DNA from: Burkholderiales bacterium
Lineage (GTDB): Bacteria > Pseudomonadota > Gammaproteobacteria > Burkholderiales > Burkholderiaceae_C
Assembly (NCBI GenBank): GCA_026932425.1
Contig: JAIXKN010000075.1
Span: 1-46,312, forward strand
DNA: 46,312 nucleotides
Direction: 5' to 3'
The first letter of the stretch is position 1, and every line of letters starts with the position of its first letter. The position numbers and the translations under genes were made by a program. Below the pieces are notes generated by a model that saw only the letters and a program-made list of their open reading frames with translations, was not told the DNA's origin and did not search any database. Below, one piece after another: positions 1,015-9,822 of this stretch.

Positions 1015-1596
1015 TCATTCGTTTTTCGACGACGGCGGGAAGCCCGGCATGCCCGGGAACAGCGCGCCCTTCTGCAGCTGCTCCTGCATCTTGTCGAAGA
1101 GCGCGCGCGACTGCTCGAAATACGGCGTCATCAGTCCCTGCATCAGCGGCGCCTGTGCGCCGAAGAACTGCGCCCAGAGTTCCGGCGTGAAGGCCTTGGG
1201 GTCGACCAGGCCCTTGCCCTGCGCCGCCAGGCGCTGCTGCAGTTCGGCGAACGCGCGCAGGTTGTGCTCGAAGAAGCCGCCCATCATCCCCTGCATCGCG
1301 TGCCCGTAGAAGCGGATGATCTGCGCCAGCGTTTCCTTGCTGAACATCGGCAGGCCGCCGGACTCCTCCTCGAGGATGATCTGCAGCAGGATGCTGCGCG
1401 TGATGTCCTCGCCGGTCTTCGCGTCGCGGACCTCGAAGTCCTCGGCGCCCATCACCATCTTCTTCACGTCGGCCAGCGTGATGTAGCTGCTGGTTCGCGT
1501 GTCGTAGAGCCGGCGGTTCGGGTACTTCTTCAGGACGCGCACGTCGCTCGCGCTGGCCTCCGGGGCGGGTTCGGGCTTGCGGCGGGACGTCGGCAT
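1015..1596 (-). CDS. phaR: PhaR, polyhydroxyalkanoate synthesis regulator
   Basis: A 193-residue cytoplasmic DNA-binding regulator of poly-3-hydroxybutyrate metabolism. In this family it represses the phasin gene and its own gene, and is released when it binds nascent polymer. The N-terminal PHB/PHA accumulation regulator domain is recognisable from KKYPNRRLYDT (residues 23-33), followed by ITLADVKKMV. The second half carries the repeated hydrophobic, Met-rich segments (FYGHAMQGMMGGFFEHNL) typical of the C-terminal polymer-binding region. Length is normal for the family. The ATG at 1596 is the only sensible start. The nearest genes are a hydrolase downstream and, beyond a terminator-like hairpin, the exopolysaccharide operon. 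bdhA at about 9.8 kb is a second PHB-cycle gene in the window. No phaC or phaAB is present here. Confidence 0.93.
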   Translation of the reverse strand: MPTSRRKPEPAPEASASDVRVLKKYPNRRLYDTRTSSYITLADVKKMVMGAEDFEVRDAKTGEDITRSILLQIILEEESGGLPMFSKETLAQIIRFYGHAMQGMMGGFFEHNLRAFAELQQRLAAQGKGLVDPKAFTPELWAQFFGAQAPLMQGLMTPYFEQSRALFDKMQEQLQKGALFPGMPGFPPSSKNE

Positions 1597-1717: not shown

Positions 1718-3544
1718 TCAGAACCAGACCCGGGCCGTGAGGCTCGCGTAGCGCCGCCAGTAGCCGGCGCCGCTGCTGCTGCCCGACGCCAGGCCCATGC
1801 CCTGCCCCGAGCCGCCGGCCGAAAGCTCGAGGCGAACGTCCGGCGCGAGGTCCAGGCCCACGCCCAGCTCCCACAGGTGCGGCCGGCCATGGCTGCGCTG
1901 ACCCCAGGCATCGGTCTCGCGCGCGCTGCCTGCGCCAACGCGCAGCCGGAAGTCCAGCGGCCGGATCTCGTGGATCATCACCGCGTAGATCCGGCCCTCG
2001 CGGTAGCGCTGCGGATTCCAGTAGCCGCGATCGACGGGCCCGCCACCGTCGCTGCGCTCGAAGGCGTTGAACTCCGCGCCCACCGCGACATGCGGTCGCG
2101 CCCAGATGCGGCGCTCGACGCGCCCGCCTGCCCGCACGCGGGTGCTGCCGTCGTCGAAACGCAGCGTCGCAAGCGAACCGGCAAGGACCCACTGCGGATC
2201 GGGACGGCGCTCGATCCCGGCCGAGAGCACGTCGACGTGCACGCGGTGGGCCACCGCGCGCGGCACCTCGACGAATTCGCGTCCGGCCTCGGCGTCGACG
2301 CGCCAGCCGTCGTCCGGCAGCCAGCGCAGTCGTGCGCTCGCCGCCACCGGATTCCAGCCCGGGAAATGCGCCGCCCTCACGGCCACCGTCGGCCACCAGC
2401 TGCCGTGGCGACCGCCGGGCTCGCCCAGCCGCCAGCCGTAGGCGGCCTGGAACTGCGTGCTGCGCGGACGCCCGTGGGGATCGTCCATGCGCAATCGCCG
2501 CGCCTGCAGCTCGACCGTCGAACCCGCGTCCGGGTGCCAGCCGGCGCCGACGACGAGGGCGTCGGTGACGAGTTCGTCCCGGTCCTCGGCGTGTTCGGCG
2601 GTGGCGTAGCCGAACGGGCGCAGCTCCCGCCGCACGCGATAGTCGCGCAGCCACGCCGACTCGACATCGGTCGGATCGGCCAGCAGCGGCCAGGCGCGAT
2701 CCTCGTAACCCGCCCAGCGCCACGCGCGCGCGAGATCGGCGCGCTCGCCCGGATGGGTCGGTGCCGCCTGGGCGAGGAAGCCCCGCAGCGCCGCGCGGTG
2801 CTGGCCGTTGAAGTTGCGCGCGTTGGCCAGCGCCCAGGCGAGGTCGCGGTCGCCGGGCACGCGCGCGACGAGCGCCTCCAGCTCGCCGATCGCGCCCGCC
2901 TCGTCGCCGTTCCAGAGCAGCGACATCGCGTAGCGACGGTGCAGCCGCAGGTCGCCGGGTGCAAGGGCATGCGCCTCGCGAAAGACCTGCAGGGCAAGCG
3001 CCTGCCTTCCCTGGGCCTGCAGCGCCTGCGCCAAGCCGTCGAGCGCCTCGACGCGCGCGCGCCCGGTGCGGGCATCGGCCAGCTCGGCGAAGAGCACTTC
3101 GGCTTGCGCCGGCGCCCCGCCCCAGAGGCTCTGCCAGGCCAGCGACGGCGCCAGATCGGCGCGCCGCTCGGGTGACAGCGCCAGGGCACGGCGATAGAGC
3201 GCGGCGGCCTCGGCGTTGCGGTCGGCATAACCATGCACCCGCGCGGATTCGATCAGCAGCTCGACGTCGTCGCCGTGACGCCGGACGAGCCATTCGAAGC
3301 GCGCAAGGGCTTCCGCCCAGTCGCGACGCTCGGCCGCGGCGCGCGCCTCGGCGCGCAGGACGGTGCTTGGCGCGTTGAGATCGAACGAAGCTCGCGGGGC
3401 CTCGGTCGAGGCCAGCTTCGGGGCCTGCGCCTGCGTATGCGCAGGCGCGCTTGTCCGCTCCAGCGGCTGCGCAAACGCGGCAGGCGGCGCCAGCGCGAGG
3501 AGCGCCAGCACCACCGCGCTCGCGAGCCTGGACGGCCGGTTCAA
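1718..3544 (-). CDS. PgaA-like TPR/beta-barrel exopolysaccharide export porin
   Basis: A predicted outer-membrane export protein for the polymer made by the neighbouring synthase. From TTG 3544 (608 aa) it has a signal peptide ending near AFA (residue 25). A helical region of TPR-like repeats spans about residues 45-320, with pairs such as ALARFEWLVRRHGD and AALYRRALALSPE. The C-terminal half (about 330-608) is rich in aromatic, alternating beta-strand patterns and ends in ARVWF, with the terminal Phe typical of barrel proteins. This is the PgaA plan, but shorter than E. coli PgaA (807 aa). The TTG start is chosen because it overlaps the PgaC stop as TTGA, repeating the overlap pattern of the operon, and has GGGAG 8 nt upstream. 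The family is inferred from architecture and context; sequence-level homology to PgaA was not tested. Confidence 0.75.
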   Translation of the reverse strand: MNRPSRLASAVVLALLALAPPAAFAQPLERTSAPAHTQAQAPKLASTEAPRASFDLNAPSTVLRAEARAAAERRDWAEALARFEWLVRRHGDDVELLIESARVHGYADRNAEAAALYRRALALSPERRADLAPSLAWQSLWGGAPAQAEVLFAELADARTGRARVEALDGLAQALQAQGRQALALQVFREAHALAPGDLRLHRRYAMSLLWNGDEAGAIGELEALVARVPGDRDLAWALANARNFNGQHRAALRGFLAQAAPTHPGERADLARAWRWAGYEDRAWPLLADPTDVESAWLRDYRVRRELRPFGYATAEHAEDRDELVTDALVVGAGWHPDAGSTVELQARRLRMDDPHGRPRSTQFQAAYGWRLGEPGGRHGSWWPTVAVRAAHFPGWNPVAASARLRWLPDDGWRVDAEAGREFVEVPRAVAHRVHVDVLSAGIERRPDPQWVLAGSLATLRFDDGSTRVRAGGRVERRIWARPHVAVGAEFNAFERSDGGGPVDRGYWNPQRYREGRIYAVMIHEIRPLDFRLRVGAGSARETDAWGQRSHGRPHLWELGVGLDLAPDVRLELSAGGSGQGMGLASGSSSGAGYWRRYASLTARVWF

Positions 3545-4809
3545 GCTGCGCTCCCGGTCCGCGCCGTGTTCCAGCGTACCGCTTCCCTGGCCGGCGCCCT
3601 GAAAAGATAGGGCAGCGCGCGCACCGTCGTCAGCGCGAGGAACGCCCAATACACCATCGGATACCAGACCGCGTACGGGAGGAAGCGCGCGATTCCGCGG
3701 TCGTAGCGGCGATCGATCAGCACGCCGGTCAGCAGCTGCAGCAGGCACAGCGTCGCGATCGACATGCCCCAGAGGTTCGGGATCGGCGAGGCGCCCACCG
3801 GCGGCAATCCCACTGCGTACGACAGTCCCCACAGCGAGACGAGGAAGACGAAGCACACCGACCACAGGATCGAGAGCGAGGACTCGATGAACACCGGCCA
3901 CAGGCGGCGGCTCTTCCAGGTCACCATCACGTCGGCGTGCTTGCGCAGCACCTGGGCCAGCCCGCGCGCCCAGCGCAGGCGCTGCTGCCACAGCCCGCGC
4001 CAGGACAGCGGCACCGTCATCCAGCAGATCGCGCGCGGTTCGTAGCGCACGTCGTAGTGGCGCTTCTGCAGCTTCCAGGTCAGTTCGATGTCCTCGGTCG
4101 GCATGTTCGGGCTGTAGCCGCCGACGTCGAACACCGCGCTGCGCCGCACCGCCGCGACCACACCCGAGACCGTGACGATCCGCCCCCAGACGCGCTGCGC
4201 ACGGCGCAGCAGGCTGATGATCGACGAGAACTCGACCGCCTGCAGCCGCGCGAGGAAGTTACCGGTGTTGCGCACGCGCGGGTTGCCGGTGACGGCGGCC
4301 ACGCGCGGCGAATCGAAGTGCGGCACGATGTAGCGCAGCATCTGCGGGTCAGGCTCGGCGTCGGCGTCCAGGCCCATCAGGATCTCGCCGCGCGCCAGCG
4401 GCAGCGCGTCGTTGAGCGCCATCGCCTTGCCTTCGTTGACGGTCTTGTGCACCACGCGCAGCCGCGCGTCACGCATCAGTGGCTGCAGAGCCGCCAGCGT
4501 GCCGTCGGTGGATCCGTCGTCGACGACGATGACCTCGAAGGACGGATAGTCCATGCGCAGCATCGCCAGCACCGAACGCGCGATCACCGCTTCCTCATTG
4601 TGGGCCGGAACGAGCACGCTCACGAGCGGCCAGTCGCGCTCGCTGCGCCGCCGCTCGTCCGGGCCGCCGGCGTTTTCCCAGCGTACGCGGAACACCAGCG
4701 CGGTCAGGATCCACATGATGCTGGTGACGATCGGGTAGGCGGCGAAGAAGCCGAGCACGATCACGTAGGGCCAGCTGTGCTGCAGCTGGTAGAGGGATTC
4801 CTCGATCAC
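3541..4809 (-). CDS. pgaC: PgaC-like processive GT2 glycosyltransferase (poly-GlcNAc-type synthase)
   Basis: A 422-residue inner-membrane family 2 glycosyltransferase that would polymerise a beta-linked sugar, probably N-acetylglucosamine, from its UDP form and push the chain across the membrane. An N-terminal membrane segment (about 13-40) is followed by the GT2 core: VDDGSTDGT (96-104), the DAD metal site (148-150), TED with the catalytic base (238-240) and QQRLRW (275-280), the product-binding motif of processive synthases. Three more hydrophobic segments lie at about 308-335, 350-368 and 377-397. It overlaps the PgaD-like gene upstream by 4 bp (ATGA) and the porin gene downstream by 4 bp (TTGA), so the three are translationally coupled. 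Motifs alone do not separate a GlcNAc polymer from another beta-glycan; the PgaD-like partner favours poly-GlcNAc. Confidence 0.87.
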   Translation of the reverse strand: MIEESLYQLQHSWPYVIVLGFFAAYPIVTSIMWILTALVFRVRWENAGGPDERRRSERDWPLVSVLVPAHNEEAVIARSVLAMLRMDYPSFEVIVVDDGSTDGTLAALQPLMRDARLRVVHKTVNEGKAMALNDALPLARGEILMGLDADAEPDPQMLRYIVPHFDSPRVAAVTGNPRVRNTGNFLARLQAVEFSSIISLLRRAQRVWGRIVTVSGVVAAVRRSAVFDVGGYSPNMPTEDIELTWKLQKRHYDVRYEPRAICWMTVPLSWRGLWQQRLRWARGLAQVLRKHADVMVTWKSRRLWPVFIESSLSILWSVCFVFLVSLWGLSYAVGLPPVGASPIPNLWGMSIATLCLLQLLTGVLIDRRYDRGIARFLPYAVWYPMVYWAFLALTTVRALPYLFRAPAREAVRWNTARTGSAA

Positions 4810-5288
4810 ACGGTCTCCTCGGTCGACTCGCGCACCGGTTGCGCCTTGGCATCGACCGCGACGAAGCGCTTCTCGGACCCGTCGACGAGGATGTCCACGC
4901 GAGAAGCGCCCGCGAGCTGCGCCCAGTCGGCGGCGATGCGCCTGCCATTGAAGTCGGCGTCGTAGCGCTCCTCGGCGACCGGCACGCTACGGCGCGGTCC
5001 CTTGCGTCGGTGGATGCCGACGTTGTGCACGACCCAGCTCAGCGTCACGATCGGCACCGCGATGAGCACGCCGATCACCAGCACGCGCAGCTCGCCGAGC
5101 TCGGGGCGCCCCGCGGTCACGCGCTGCCAGCCCCAGACGAAGAGCACCCAGCCGAGCGCGATCAGAAAGGCGTGCAGCAGCCGGCGCCGCCAGGGAAGCG
5201 GCGCCTGCGCCTGACGCGACACGCGGGCGCCGGCCCAGGCACCCGGGGCTGCAGGCGTCGCAGCCCTCGACGCGTCGCGCGGGTTCAC
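4806..5288 (-). CDS. pgaD: PgaD-like small membrane partner of the synthase
   Basis: A 160-residue protein with two transmembrane segments, LLHAFLIALGWVLFVWGWQRV (about 37-57) and LRVLVIGVLIAVPIVTLSWV (about 68-87), followed by a basic GIHRRKGPRR stretch and a soluble C-terminus. This matches the PgaD/HmsS family, which binds PgaC and is needed for polymerisation. In E. coli the PgaC-PgaD pair responds to cyclic di-GMP; whether this one does is not visible. The start is GTG 5288, whose bases overlap the stop of the PEP-CTERM gene as GTGA. The end overlaps the PgaC start as ATGA. The reading frame is open further upstream, but that part lies antisense-free inside the PEP-CTERM coding sequence and is not a plausible start. 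The gene order D-C-A differs from E. coli A-B-C-D. Confidence 0.8.
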   Translation of the reverse strand: MNPRDASRAATPAAPGAWAGARVSRQAQAPLPWRRRLLHAFLIALGWVLFVWGWQRVTAGRPELGELRVLVIGVLIAVPIVTLSWVVHNVGIHRRKGPRRSVPVAEERYDADFNGRRIAADWAQLAGASRVDILVDGSEKRFVAVDAKAQPVRESTEETV

Positions 5289-6181
5289 TGCGCGGCCGGG
5301 CGACGCGAGCGCCACGCCGCCGCACCGAAGGCCAGCGCCAGCAGCGCCAGCGCCGGCGGCTCCGGAACCTGGTGCGCGAAGTTGTCGACCGGCACCAGTT
5401 CCCACTTCCCACCGTCGCGCGACCAGCGCAGATCGACGACTCCGGCACCCAGGCGGTTCCAGCTGCCGAGTTCGAAGCCGTAGAGACCAGCCGAAAGCAG
5501 CAGGTCTTGGTCGAAACCCAGGCGCTCGCGCGGGTTCAGGAAGTCGCGGCCGATCTCGAGCGTCTCGTTGTCCTTCCCGATCAGGCGGAAGAAGAAGCCA
5601 TCGTCGAAGAGGACGCTGAAGTTGTAGAGCCCCGCCTCGGTGATGCGGATGAGGCCGTTGAATTGCGTCGCCCAGTTCATCTGGTCGGCCGCCCCGGCTT
5701 CCTTGTCGCTGCAGGGGGCGCCCGTGACCGTGTTGCTGAAGAAGGGCGCGAGGTTGGCCGCGCCCCAGGTGCCGGCGTAGCACTCGTTGTAGCGGGCATT
5801 GCCGAAGTTGATCTGGTCGACGATGCCGCCCCACTGCTGCACCGGCGTAACGCCGCCGCTCATCACCTGCTGCCAGTCGGCTCGGCCCCAAAGGCCCGTT
5901 CCCCAGTCGAAGCCGCCGATGGCGCTGCCGTTGCCGTACTCATGTGTGCCTTCGTTCCACAGCACCTGGCTGCCGTGCCAGGCGTTGTCGATGCGACGGA
6001 AGTCAACCTGAGCGCCCGGGGCGGTGGCCACCGAGCCGCTGTAGAGGGGGTCGAAGACGAGGGGATCGGCCAGCACCGGCGCGGCGACAAGCGCGCTGCA
6101 GGCCAGGGCGAGCAAGGCCGGACGCAGCTTGGCACGCGGCGCGCGCCCTTGCGATGGAGAGCGGCAGTCTTGTTTCAACAT
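5285..6181 (-). CDS. PEP-CTERM protein with PA14-like domain
   Basis: A 298-residue exported protein. It has a signal peptide ending near VLA (residue 39), a central region of unknown fold with two Cys (about 134 and 157), and a PA14-like domain (about 166-258). That domain is recognised from FNGLIRITEAGLYNF, FDDGFFFRL and the closing VVDLRWSRDGG. The C-terminus is a classical PEP-CTERM signal: VPEP (272-275), a hydrophobic helix (ALALLALAFGAAAW) and an Arg cluster (RSRRP). PEP-CTERM proteins are cleaved and sorted by an exosortase, and PA14 domains often bind glycans. It is the first gene of the pga-like operon and overlaps the next by 4 bp, so a role in holding or shaping the polymer at the surface is inferred. 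The ATG at 6181 has AGG about 10 nt upstream. No exosortase gene lies in the window. Confidence 0.85.
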   Translation of the reverse strand: MLKQDCRSPSQGRAPRAKLRPALLALACSALVAAPVLADPLVFDPLYSGSVATAPGAQVDFRRIDNAWHGSQVLWNEGTHEYGNGSAIGGFDWGTGLWGRADWQQVMSGGVTPVQQWGGIVDQINFGNARYNECYAGTWGAANLAPFFSNTVTGAPCSDKEAGAADQMNWATQFNGLIRITEAGLYNFSVLFDDGFFFRLIGKDNETLEIGRDFLNPRERLGFDQDLLLSAGLYGFELGSWNRLGAGVVDLRWSRDGGKWELVPVDNFAHQVPEPPALALLALAFGAAAWRSRRPAAQ

Positions 6182-6542: not shown

Positions 6543-8813
6543 TCAGCGCCGCCTTGCCTTCCAGACCCCGGGCACGCGCGCCACCGCGCGCAGCGCCTGC
6601 GCGATGCGGCCGGCGTCCTCGGCCTCGACGGTGAAGACCATGTGCGCCGTCGCCCCGCGGTGCCCGCGCTGCGACTGCGTGTTCACCGCGATCACGTTCA
6701 GCCGCTCCTTGGTGAACACCTCGGAGATGTCGCGCAGCAGGCCTTGGCGGTCCTCGGCTTCGATCTGCACGTCGACCGGGTAGACCGGACGCTTGTCGCC
6801 TCCCGCCGCGGCTCCCCACTGGACCTCGATCTCGCGCCCGGGGAAGCGTTCGACCATGTGGCGCAAGTTGCTGCAGTCGCGTCGATGAATCGCCACGCCC
6901 TTGCCACGGGTCACGAAGCCGCGGATCGGGTCCGGCGGTGCCGGCCGGCAGCAGCGCGCGAGCGTCGTCATCAACGAGCCCATGCCGACGACGAGAACGC
7001 CGCCGCCGGCCTTGTCGCTGCGCGAACGGCGCAGCAGCGGCGCGTCGGCCTCCGCCGCGGCAGGTGCCGCCGGACGCAGCAGGTTCTCGATGTTGCGCAG
7101 CGAATACTCGTCTTTACCGACGACCTCGAACAGATCGTCGGCCGACTTGAAGCCGAGCTGCTCGGCCAGGTGCTCGAGCTTGAGCGCCGTGCGCCCTTCC
7201 CGCTGGAGCAGCTTCTCGACCAGCTCGCGACCGCGCGCCAGCGTCGCCGACAAGGCCTGGGCGTTGAACCAGGCCCTGACCTTGGCGCGCGCACGCGCGC
7301 TCTGCAGGTAGTGCAGCTCCGGGTTGAGCCAGTCCATCGACGGCCCGCCCTCCTTCGCGGCAACGATCTCGACCGTCTGCCCATGCGTGAGCGGCGTGTT
7401 CAGCGGCACCATCGCGCCGTCGACGCGTGCGCCGCGGCAGCGGTGCCCGAGCTCGGTGTGCAGCGCGTAGGCGAAGTCCACCGGTGTTGCGCCCGCGGGC
7501 AGGTCGATCAGCGTCGCCTGCGGCGTGAAGACGTAGATGCGGTCGTCGAGCCCGGCACCGACCGCAGCGCCGGGCCCCTGCGCCGCACCCGTGCCGGCCT
7601 TGCGCTGCGTGCTGCTGAAGTCGCGCTCCCAGGCGAGCAGCTCGCGCAGCACGGCCTTGCGCGCGTCGGCCAGCCGCTGCTCGTACGCGCCCGTCGCCGC
7701 AACGCCCGCGTAGCCGCGCGTGCCGGCCTCCTTGTAGAGCCAGTGCGCGGCCACGCCGTACTCGGCATGCTCGTGCATCGCCTGGGTGCGGATCTGCACC
7801 TCGATCGGACGCCCGTCCTCTGCCAGCACGACCGTGTGCAGCGAACGGTAGCCGTTGGCCTTGGGCCGCGCGATGTAGTCGTCGAACTCGCCCTCGACCG
7901 GGGTGTAGGCCTCGTGCACGCGTGCCAGCGCCGCGTAGCACGCGGCTTCGTCGTCGACGATCACGCGCAGCGCGCGCACGTCGAAGACGCGCTCGATCGA
8001 CAGGCCCTTGCCCTGCATCTTCTTCCAGATGCTGTAGAGATGCTTGGGCCGGCCCACGACCTCGGCGCGGATGCGCGCCTCCTGCAGCAGCGCGGCGAGC
8101 CGCTGCCGCGCCTGCTCGACGCCCTGCTCGCGCTCGGTGCGCTTCTCGTCGACGAGCCGGGCCACGCGGTGGTAGGCCTGCGGATCCAGGAAGCGGAAGG
8201 ACAGGTCCTCGAGCTCCCACTTGATCTGCCAGATGCCCAGCCGGTTGGCCAGCGGCGCGAACACCTGCTGCGACTCGAGCGCGAGCTCGCGCGGACACTC
8301 GCGCTTGCTCGCGGCGTACCAGCGCAGGGTCTGCAGCCGTGAGGCCAGGCGCAGCAGCACGACGCGCAGATCCCGCCCGAAGGCCAGCAGCATCTTCCGT
8401 ACGCGCTCGGTCTGCTGCACGCCCGCGGCCTCGCCGGCCGCACCGCCGATCGCCGCGCCGAGCGCGGCGCGCTGGATCTGCACGAGCTGGCGCGTGAGCA
8501 TCACCAGGCTCGCGTACGACGGTCCGAACGCGCGCTTGATGACCTCCTCGGGATGCTGCAGGTAGTCGCTGGCGTAGACGAGGTAGGCCGATGCCTGCAT
8601 CGACGGCGCGGCACCGATCGCGGCCAGGATCCCGGCAACGCCATCGGCATGCGCAAGCGCCCCCTCGCCCGACCCGCGCGTCTGGCCCGAGAGCAGGGGT
8701 TCGGCGAAGGCACGTGCGCGCTGCAGGCTTGCTGCGCCCTCTGCCGCTGCGGCGTCGCTGAGCTGAACGATGGGCGCGGCCAGCCGCGCCGCCTCGGCGC
8801 CGAAGGTCTTCAT
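6543..8813 (-). CDS. relA: RelA, GTP pyrophosphokinase ((p)ppGpp synthetase)
   Basis: A 756-residue cytoplasmic stringent-response enzyme making (p)ppGpp from ATP and GDP/GTP on stalled ribosomes. Domains in order: a degenerate HD region (about 45-190), in which the His-Asp metal pair of the hydrolase is not seen (VYASDYL in its place); the synthetase domain (about 245-360), with GRPKHLYSIWKKM and the RelA-type acidic EFDD motif (309-312); a TGS domain (about 424-485, from DRIYVFTPQ); a helical part; a Cys/His element, ARCCRPAPPDPIRGF (about 619-633), with HRRDC; and a C-terminal ACT domain (about 677-756). EFDD and the loss of HD residues mark it as the monofunctional RelA rather than SpoT/Rel. 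Length fits E. coli RelA (744 aa). The start is ATG 8813. Confidence 0.95.
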   Translation of the reverse strand: MKTFGAEAARLAAPIVQLSDAAAAEGAASLQRARAFAEPLLSGQTRGSGEGALAHADGVAGILAAIGAAPSMQASAYLVYASDYLQHPEEVIKRAFGPSYASLVMLTRQLVQIQRAALGAAIGGAAGEAAGVQQTERVRKMLLAFGRDLRVVLLRLASRLQTLRWYAASKRECPRELALESQQVFAPLANRLGIWQIKWELEDLSFRFLDPQAYHRVARLVDEKRTEREQGVEQARQRLAALLQEARIRAEVVGRPKHLYSIWKKMQGKGLSIERVFDVRALRVIVDDEAACYAALARVHEAYTPVEGEFDDYIARPKANGYRSLHTVVLAEDGRPIEVQIRTQAMHEHAEYGVAAHWLYKEAGTRGYAGVAATGAYEQRLADARKAVLRELLAWERDFSSTQRKAGTGAAQGPGAAVGAGLDDRIYVFTPQATLIDLPAGATPVDFAYALHTELGHRCRGARVDGAMVPLNTPLTHGQTVEIVAAKEGGPSMDWLNPELHYLQSARARAKVRAWFNAQALSATLARGRELVEKLLQREGRTALKLEHLAEQLGFKSADDLFEVVGKDEYSLRNIENLLRPAAPAAAEADAPLLRRSRSDKAGGGVLVVGMGSLMTTLARCCRPAPPDPIRGFVTRGKGVAIHRRDCSNLRHMVERFPGREIEVQWGAAAGGDKRPVYPVDVQIEAEDRQGLLRDISEVFTKERLNVIAVNTQSQRGHRGATAHMVFTVEAEDAGRIAQALRAVARVPGVWKARRR

Positions 8814-8886: not shown

Positions 8887-9762
8887 TCAGGGCGAGAGCA
8901 GAAACTCCCGCACCACCTGCCGCTGCTCCGGCTGCACGAGCGTGGGCGCGTGGCCCACGCCGTCGAACTCGACCAGCCTTGCCTTCGGTCCGCGTTCGGT
9001 CATCGCCTGTGCCGTCGCCGTCGAGAGCAGGTCCGACTCGCGCCCGCGCAGCAGCAGCACCGGCAGCTTCAGCGCATCCCAGGCGGCCCAGAGCGCAGCC
9101 TCGCCGGCGCGCGCGAGCTCGGGCGTGATCGCGCGAAACGGAACCGCGATCGCCGGGTCGTAGTGCGGCTTGTAGCCCTCACCGTCGGCCACCAGCTGCG
9201 GGCGCGTGAGCGCAAGCCACTGCTCGCGCGTGTGCGGGCCGAAGCTCTGGCTGATGGTCCACAGCGCGTCCGCCGCCTCGTCCACGGTCTTCCAGTGCAT
9301 CGGCGCGCCGAGATAGGTGCCGATGCGTGTCAGCGACGACGGCTCGATCGTCGGTCCGACATCGTTGAGCACCAGCCGGCGCAGCGGCGAACCCGACAGC
9401 GCCGCGACGCCGAGGCCGATCAGCCCGCCCATCGAGGTGCCGACCCAGTCGAGCTCGCGCGCATCGAGCCGCGCGAGCAGCGTCACCATGTCGGCCACGT
9501 AGGTCGGGATCGCGTAGCCCATCGGATCCGCGAGCCAGTCGCTGCGGCCGCGGCCGACGACGTCCGGGCAGACGACGCGGTACTCGGCGCACAGGTCGGC
9601 AGCCAGGGTATCGAAGTCGCGCCCCTGGCGCGAGAGCCCGTGCACGCAGACGAGCACGCGGTCGTTGTCGGCGTCGCCCCATTCCCAGTAGGCCATGCGG
9701 TGCAGGCCGCGCGTGTCAAAGCACTGGACGTGGCGCAGACGGGGTTCGGCAGCGGAGTTCAT
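8887..9762 (-). CDS. Alpha/beta hydrolase (esterase/lipase-like)
   Basis: A 291-residue cytoplasmic hydrolase of the classical alpha/beta fold. Visible features are the oxyanion motif CVHGLSRQGRDF (about 39-50), the nucleophile elbow GTSMGG with Ser110, an acid candidate in RGRESDLLS, and the C-terminal His in GVGHAPTL. The cap region is short. The start is ATG 9762; nearby bases give only a weak ribosome site. It lies 73 bp upstream of relA on the same strand and diverges from bdhA with 60 bp between the starts, so the two may share a promoter region. The substrate cannot be named from sequence. With bdhA beside it, an ester of the hydroxybutyrate pathway is conceivable, but this is only context. 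Confidence 0.85.
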   Translation of the reverse strand: MNSAAEPRLRHVQCFDTRGLHRMAYWEWGDADNDRVLVCVHGLSRQGRDFDTLAADLCAEYRVVCPDVVGRGRSDWLADPMGYAIPTYVADMVTLLARLDARELDWVGTSMGGLIGLGVAALSGSPLRRLVLNDVGPTIEPSSLTRIGTYLGAPMHWKTVDEAADALWTISQSFGPHTREQWLALTRPQLVADGEGYKPHYDPAIAVPFRAITPELARAGEAALWAAWDALKLPVLLLRGRESDLLSTATAQAMTERGPKARLVEFDGVGHAPTLVQPEQRQVVREFLLSP

Positions 9763-9822
9763 GGCGCGCTCGGGTGGCAATTCGATAATGCGGCCATCGT
9801 AACCACAGCAGGAGCGCATCGC

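Follow-up and report, generated by a model that had tools for sequence, protein, structure and literature searches.

A PEP-CTERM gene with a PA14-like body leads a Pga-like exopolysaccharide operon that has no pgaB

Exosortase substrates are numerous and are linked with exopolysaccharide, and which substrate is paired with which polymer is unclear. What, then, is the role of an exosortase substrate whose gene stands at the head of an exopolysaccharide operon? This question is raised by a stretch of 46,312 nucleotides from a Burkholderiales bacterium (contig JAIXKN010000075.1; the whole stretch is called the window below), in which four open reading frames (ORFs) follow one another on the minus strand from 6181 to 1718 and each neighbouring pair shares 4 bp. 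A preliminary description of this DNA had proposed that a gene for a PEP-CTERM protein (the PEP gene and PEP protein below) is coupled here to PgaD-, PgaC-, and PgaA-like genes in one operon, and this is confirmed. It had given the overlap letters as GTGA, ATGA, and TTGA; the first and the last are correct but the window reads GTGA, GTGA, TTGA, and the ATG starts belong to a relative (L050) that has them at the overlaps where the window has GTG. Pga operons are known and so are exosortase systems. What appears to be new here is a Pga-like operon that has an exosortase substrate in the place where PgaB would be expected.

The missing PgaB is the most informative feature of the operon. The gene order in E. 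coli K-12 is pgaA-B-C-D, and PgaB deacetylates the polymer in E. coli and in Bordetella. With a relative's PgaB as the tblastn query, no PgaB was found at any of 21 pga clusters that have the PEP gene, as far as these could be read: 20 of the 21 were seen to the limits of the contig or stretch, those of G094, G107, and KLAP148 being cut on one side, and for G039 the scan covered the pga contig only. The same query found PgaB in all eight pga clusters that have no PEP gene (G020, G022, G085, G086, G122, G188, G279, and G284). The hydrolase domain of PgaB (GHL13) was then absent genome-wide from the 18 PEP-cluster genomes searched, G207 included, and from G143; completeness is 90% or more in 12 of the 18 and 84% in the window's own genome. 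It was present in both of the PEP-less genomes searched genome-wide, G279 and G284, while G451, G464, G571, KLAP148, and the six PEP-less genomes of the family lay outside this search. No PEP protein was found genome-wide in those six family genomes, and in G279 and G284 it was sought at the locus only. In no readable cluster do PgaB and the PEP gene stand together, and each has one of the two, the one doubtful case being G207, in which the PEP gene is not just upstream. This mutual exclusion suggests that there are two ways of retaining such a polymer on the cell.

The coupling of the PEP gene to pga is no local accident. Lack of the gene pair in relatives would have counted against the preliminary description, but relatives do keep the pair: the PEP gene leads 21 readable pga clusters, all of them distinct loci, in several genera and families and in two gene orders. 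The order PEP-D-C-A of the window is found in 17 clusters, 11 of them in the genus and the others in KLAP148 (L062), G059, G107, G451, G464, and G571; four clusters (G162, G175, G111, and G039) are instead ordered PEP-A-C-D. In G094 the contig stops within or just past pgaC so that pgaA is unseen, in G107 the PEP gene is cut by the contig end, and in G039 the cluster lies across two contigs and its pgaC (L094 1369-2628) has one in-frame stop, which is either gene decay or a sequencing error. Among 60 genomes of the genus PgaC was found in 12 (E ≤ 1e-60), and the full-length PEP protein was found in 11 of these 12 and in none of the remaining 48. Some match to the PEP profile was obtained in 16 of the 60, namely, the 12 PgaC genomes together with G225, G235, G237, and G251, which have no PgaC and whose matches are partial and weak (E 5e-17 to 2.5e-6). 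In the family, 9 of 200 genomes matched the window's PEP protein and 14 had PgaC, with both in 8; the ninth PEP match, G143, is weak and has no Pga gene within its 20-kb neighbourhood. At least 5 of 369 genomes in the class sample, the window's included, match the PEP protein, this being a lower bound because at most six candidates per genome were scored. Three of the other four (G451, G464, and G571) have the cluster in the window's order and G508 is without it. The PEP protein and PgaC agree in their pairwise distances (r = 0.87 for 20 loci and r = 0.92 for the 16 D-C-A loci, with 0 of 2000 permutations reaching the observed r in either set), which is what genes that are inherited together would be expected to show. 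Neutral linkage of the PEP gene to pga was judged unlikely because the same four genes are kept in two gene orders, and spread by plasmids was set aside, a search of 72,556 plasmid records having given no match to the PEP protein. G451 has an additional, orphan PEP/PA14 gene (L070, about 9094-9807), with no Pga matches in its 20-kb neighbourhood.

The body of the PEP protein is PA14-like by profile comparison. A profile of the 17-member family matched solved PA14-type chains, the best being 6qdi (E = 7.2e-10), and 13 of the 17 members matched Pfam PA14 at E ≤ 0.1 (best 3.3e-5). The profile also matched chains named 'Antifreeze protein' (E 1.4e-4 to 2e-4), which we take to be the PA14 lectin of M. 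primoryensis. The residues D193-D194-G195 are unchanged across all 17 aligned members, Asp-Asp-Gly (DDG) is found in 19 of the 21 copies of the PEP protein, and in the profile alignment the DDG of the window falls onto the DDG of the antifreeze-protein chain. In that lectin, MpPA14, the Asp-Asp pair holds Ca2+, which binds the 3,4-diol of N-acetylglucosamine (GlcNAc), and the acetyl group gives an additional contact (PMC8092209). The PA14-like body of the PEP protein is probably Ca2+-dependent and sugar-binding. No NCBIfam family covers this body at cut-off in the seven members scanned, and the domain models over cut-off in those seven are tail models.

The tail consists of a C-terminal PEP motif, a hydrophobic helix, and a basic end, and the VPEP-helix-Arg tail of the preliminary description holds: it passes Pfam PEP-CTERM (PF07589; 21.6 bits against a cut-off of 20.7) and falls short of TIGR02595 (14.8 against 16). 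A signal peptide seems present by eye alone. The exosortase that such a tail calls for, and whose absence would also have counted against the preliminary description, was found in the window's genome (E = 6.4e-69); it is XrtA by NCBIfam (337.3 against 208 bits) and its locus includes other XrtA-system genes. All 21 PEP-cluster genomes searched (18 and a further 3; KLAP148 lay outside this search) have a strong exosortase with a best E ≤ 5.0e-67. All five that were subtyped (the window's own, G451, G240, G206, and G059) have XrtA, G451 having XrtD in addition, and in G206, G209, G236, and G240 the exosortase gene and the pga cluster share a contig and are about 25-27 kb apart. Among the eight PEP-less genomes a strong exosortase match was obtained in G284 only; in four others the matches are weaker (E 1.2e-9 to 7.1e-24), and in the last three there was no match. 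The exchange of PgaB for the PEP protein therefore accompanies a strong exosortase, but such an exosortase does not force the exchange, as G284 shows. Among the tails of the 21 copies VPEP is found in 17, and the others read VPAP in G059, VDAPP in G240, VDVPP in G206, and VPLP in G451. The PEP-type protein of G451 (L071 9112-9942; L096/L097) has a VPLPA-CTERM tail (31.7 against a cut-off of 25.35) and the XrtD of this genome is the VPLPA-specific exosortase (568 against 400 bits). A like body with a tail that appears fitted to another exosortase suggests that sorting or processing matters.

We give a probability of about one half to the reading that this is a Pga-type system without PgaB in which a PA14 lectin, itself an exosortase substrate, retains the polymer at the surface. 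The PgaC- and PgaD-like proteins would synthesise a poly-GlcNAc-like polymer and pass it to the periplasm, and export would be the task of the PgaA-like TPR barrel. The product of the first gene would be secreted, its VPEP tail would be processed by XrtA, and it would be delivered to the surface or to the matrix, there to hold the acetylated polymer with its PA14-like domain. Because a beta-1,6 linkage leaves O3 and O4 of every residue free, a lectin that recognises 3,4-diols would be able to bind each residue of the chain. The lectin would in this way supply the retention and cohesion that pgaABCD systems get from deacetylation by PgaB. In B. bronchiseptica deacetylation appears to be unneeded for export and to be needed for robust biofilm (PMC5933820). 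It is a tentative step further, and one that we hold with less confidence than the reading above, to propose that a lectin has replaced an enzyme, that is, that in the Pga-type systems of bacteria with exosortases an exosortase-sorted, Ca2+-dependent PA14 lectin, recognising the free 3,4-diols of beta-1,6-poly-GlcNAc, stands in for PgaB and that the acetylated polymer is kept by a protein and not by charge. If this is true, an exosortase substrate gains a polymer partner that can be assigned to it. One substrate, one synthase, and one exporter in a unit of four genes make the pairing of substrate and polymer directly testable. The preliminary description had the PEP protein as a surface-retained binder or organiser of the polymer that would be made in a fixed ratio with it, and both parts of this are proposals.

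Several observations weigh against this reading. The split between PgaB and the PEP protein amounts to few events because the clusters are related by descent, and the PgaC tree requires just two changes among three groups. We do not claim that the PEP association arose twice independently, since on this the trees of PgaC are undecided (support for the ABCD group 64/34, or 49/19 with E. coli), and a PgaC tree rooted on a distant glycosyltransferase family 2 (GT2) protein was rejected, its outgroup branch being too long to trust. Fisher tests (3.3e-4 in the family and 3.5e-11 in the genus) take no account of shared descent and were left out of the evidence. In G207 (L054, L075) pgaD-C-A lies on a short contig with no PEP gene directly upstream, and a PEP fragment is found at the end of a separate contig, so that the separation of the two may be due to a rearrangement or an assembly break. 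The PA14-like domain of the preliminary description stands on the family profile but not on the window's protein by itself, which scores 12 bits with Pfam PA14 against a cut-off of 24. DEG replaces DDG in G464 and G571, by eye the PEP protein appears to differ from the known lectin in the second sugar-binding loop, and the AlphaFold model, built on three sequences, that of the window's protein and those of two related loci, has a mean predicted local distance difference test (pLDDT) score of 32.7 and is unusable. The PEP motif is degenerate in G240 (L056 6448-7461) and G206 (L058 6480-7454) though XrtA is present in both; these proteins match no NCBIfam model and keep the hydrophobic helix. 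Their tails suggest that sorting can be lost.

The degenerate tails with their kept helix are what would be expected if the PEP protein were anchored in the inner membrane through its C-terminal helix and led the polymer to the TPR domain of PgaA as PgaB does, sorting being secondary. The PEP protein occupies the place of PgaB in the gene set, and E. coli PgaB binds the TPR domain of PgaA (PMC9384988). We consider this explanation unlikely, since VPEP is kept in those 17 of 21 copies and the switch to a VPLPA tail in an XrtD genome suggests that processing matters. The PEP protein also has no detectable similarity to PgaB, its BLAST matches to the E. coli Pga proteins being at chance level.

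The remaining points against retention by a PA14 lectin concern the Pga-like proteins, whose look, as given in the preliminary description, is borne out unevenly. The window's PgaC misses the cut-off of TIGR03937 (PgaC_IcaA) narrowly, by less than 9 bits (413.7 against 422.3), every other family in the NCBIfam scan scores far lower, and its identity to E. coli PgaC is 38% over 423 positions. The PgaA barrel is over the Pfam cut-off (PgaA_barrel, 35.8 against 27) as is TPR_14 (37 against 23.5), but the full-length PgaA is far under that of TIGR03939 (49.2 against 366.65 bits). PgaD is under both of its cut-offs (Pfam 17 against 27 bits; TIGR03940 11.8 against 31.45), and its position and size agree with the role of PgaD. 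PgaD queries matched just three of the eight PEP-less clusters (L060, L061, L088-L093), and therefore the sequence of PgaD is poorly conserved. The low scores of PgaA and PgaD could mean that the polymer of the D-C-A clusters, that of the window among them, is a different one for which deacetylation was never needed, the absence of PgaB then reflecting the polymer and no replacement. The D-C-A PgaC is a deep branch with a mean identity of 37.5% to the ABCD synthases, the value for the A-C-D PgaC being 52.4%. Such a polymer is, in our estimate, improbable, and more so than the inner-membrane role considered above, because the PgaC of the window is so close to the PgaC_IcaA cut-off and so far from other families and because A-C-D relatives that exceed the NCBIfam cut-offs, L029 with PgaA and PgaC (594.8 bits with TIGR03937) and L030 with PgaD, still have the PEP gene and no PgaB. 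Since these proteins exceed the cut-offs, the polymer of the A-C-D clusters is likely to be poly-N-acetylglucosamine (PNAG); for the divergent Pga set of the window we are less sure of PNAG.

A further explanation for the absence of PgaB is that another deacetylase, for example one at the XrtA locus, covers its work and that the PEP protein is a further matrix protein whose gene is placed by pga for regulation. The XrtA locus of the window's genome does include a polysaccharide deacetylase (TIGR03006, 446 bits against 276.2), and at E ≤ 1 this genome yields at least 14 further PEP-CTERM matches, of which 12 exceed the cut-off, in a list that misses the window's own tail and is hence incomplete. 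Another deacetylase would leave unexplained why one PEP protein stays by pga across several families and in either gene order, and G284 has a strong exosortase yet keeps a PgaB cluster without a PEP gene. We therefore regard it as about as improbable as a different polymer.

The operon can be set beside three known systems. It resembles pgaABCD, the PNAG operon known from E. coli and related bacteria, in that homologues of PgaC, PgaD, and PgaA are encoded together, and differs from it in that pgaB is missing, an exosortase substrate leads, the order is D-C-A, and PgaA and PgaD are divergent. With PepA of Aquincola tertiaricarbonis the PEP protein shares the PEP-CTERM tail, XrtA, and a proposed retention of exopolysaccharide on cells (PMC9850573). 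When PepA was overexpressed in an rpoN1 mutant, soluble exopolysaccharide went down and bound exopolysaccharide went up (PMC9850573). However, PepA is tied to prsT (PMC9850573) and the window's protein to a synthase-dependent pga operon, and the latter has a body without an NCBIfam family at cut-off. A sigma-54 site as at pepA was not found upstream, where the best score in the window with a home-made consensus was 14.5; the scores of 19 upstream regions were within or near the shuffled range (mean 15.2, 95% 17.0, 99% 18.0), the highest being 17.5 in L029. With the PA14 lectin domains found in RTX adhesins (MpPA14, PMC8092209; MhPA14, PMC6650083) the PEP protein has in common a PA14-like match of its family profile and an Asp-Asp-Gly loop that aligns, but those domains are part of giant adhesins whereas the PA14-like region of the window belongs to a small exosortase-type protein, besides the difference by eye in the second loop. 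In the open-licence full-text literature nothing was found that pairs PEP-CTERM or exosortase with pgaC, pgaABCD, PNAG, or N-acetylglucosamine synthase. In the open-licence literature only myxobacterial TraAB work came up for a PA14 domain with PEP-CTERM, and only work on the PgaB hydrolase for a missing pgaB.

The features of the window are collected in Table 1, together with the genes on either side of the operon, which are ordinary among those checked.

Table 1. Positions of the operon, its parts, and its neighbours in the window
Feature	Position	Strand	Basis
P0001, PEP-CTERM protein with PA14-like body, secreted-looking, 298 aa, first gene	5285..6181	-	ORF call, Pfam/NCBIfam, family profile
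PA14-like region, about residues 158-265 of P0001	5387..5710	-	family profile against solved PA14 chains; Pfam PA14 in family members
D193-D194-G195 codons, candidate Ca2+/sugar site	5597..5605	-	conserved in alignment
VPEP-helix-Arg sorting tail, residues 272-298 of P0001	5288..5368	-	Pfam PEP-CTERM; VPEP common among copies
P0002, PgaD-like membrane protein, 160 aa	4806..5288	-	weak Pfam PgaD match; equal position in D-C-A relatives
P0003, PgaC-like GT2 synthase, 422 aa	3541..4809	-	TIGR03937 score; identity to E. coli PgaC
P0004, PgaA-like TPR/outer-membrane barrel protein, 608 aa	1718..3544	-	Pfam PgaA_barrel, TPR_14
PhaR, flanking gene	1015-1596		
RelA/SpoT-family protein, flanking gene	6543-8813

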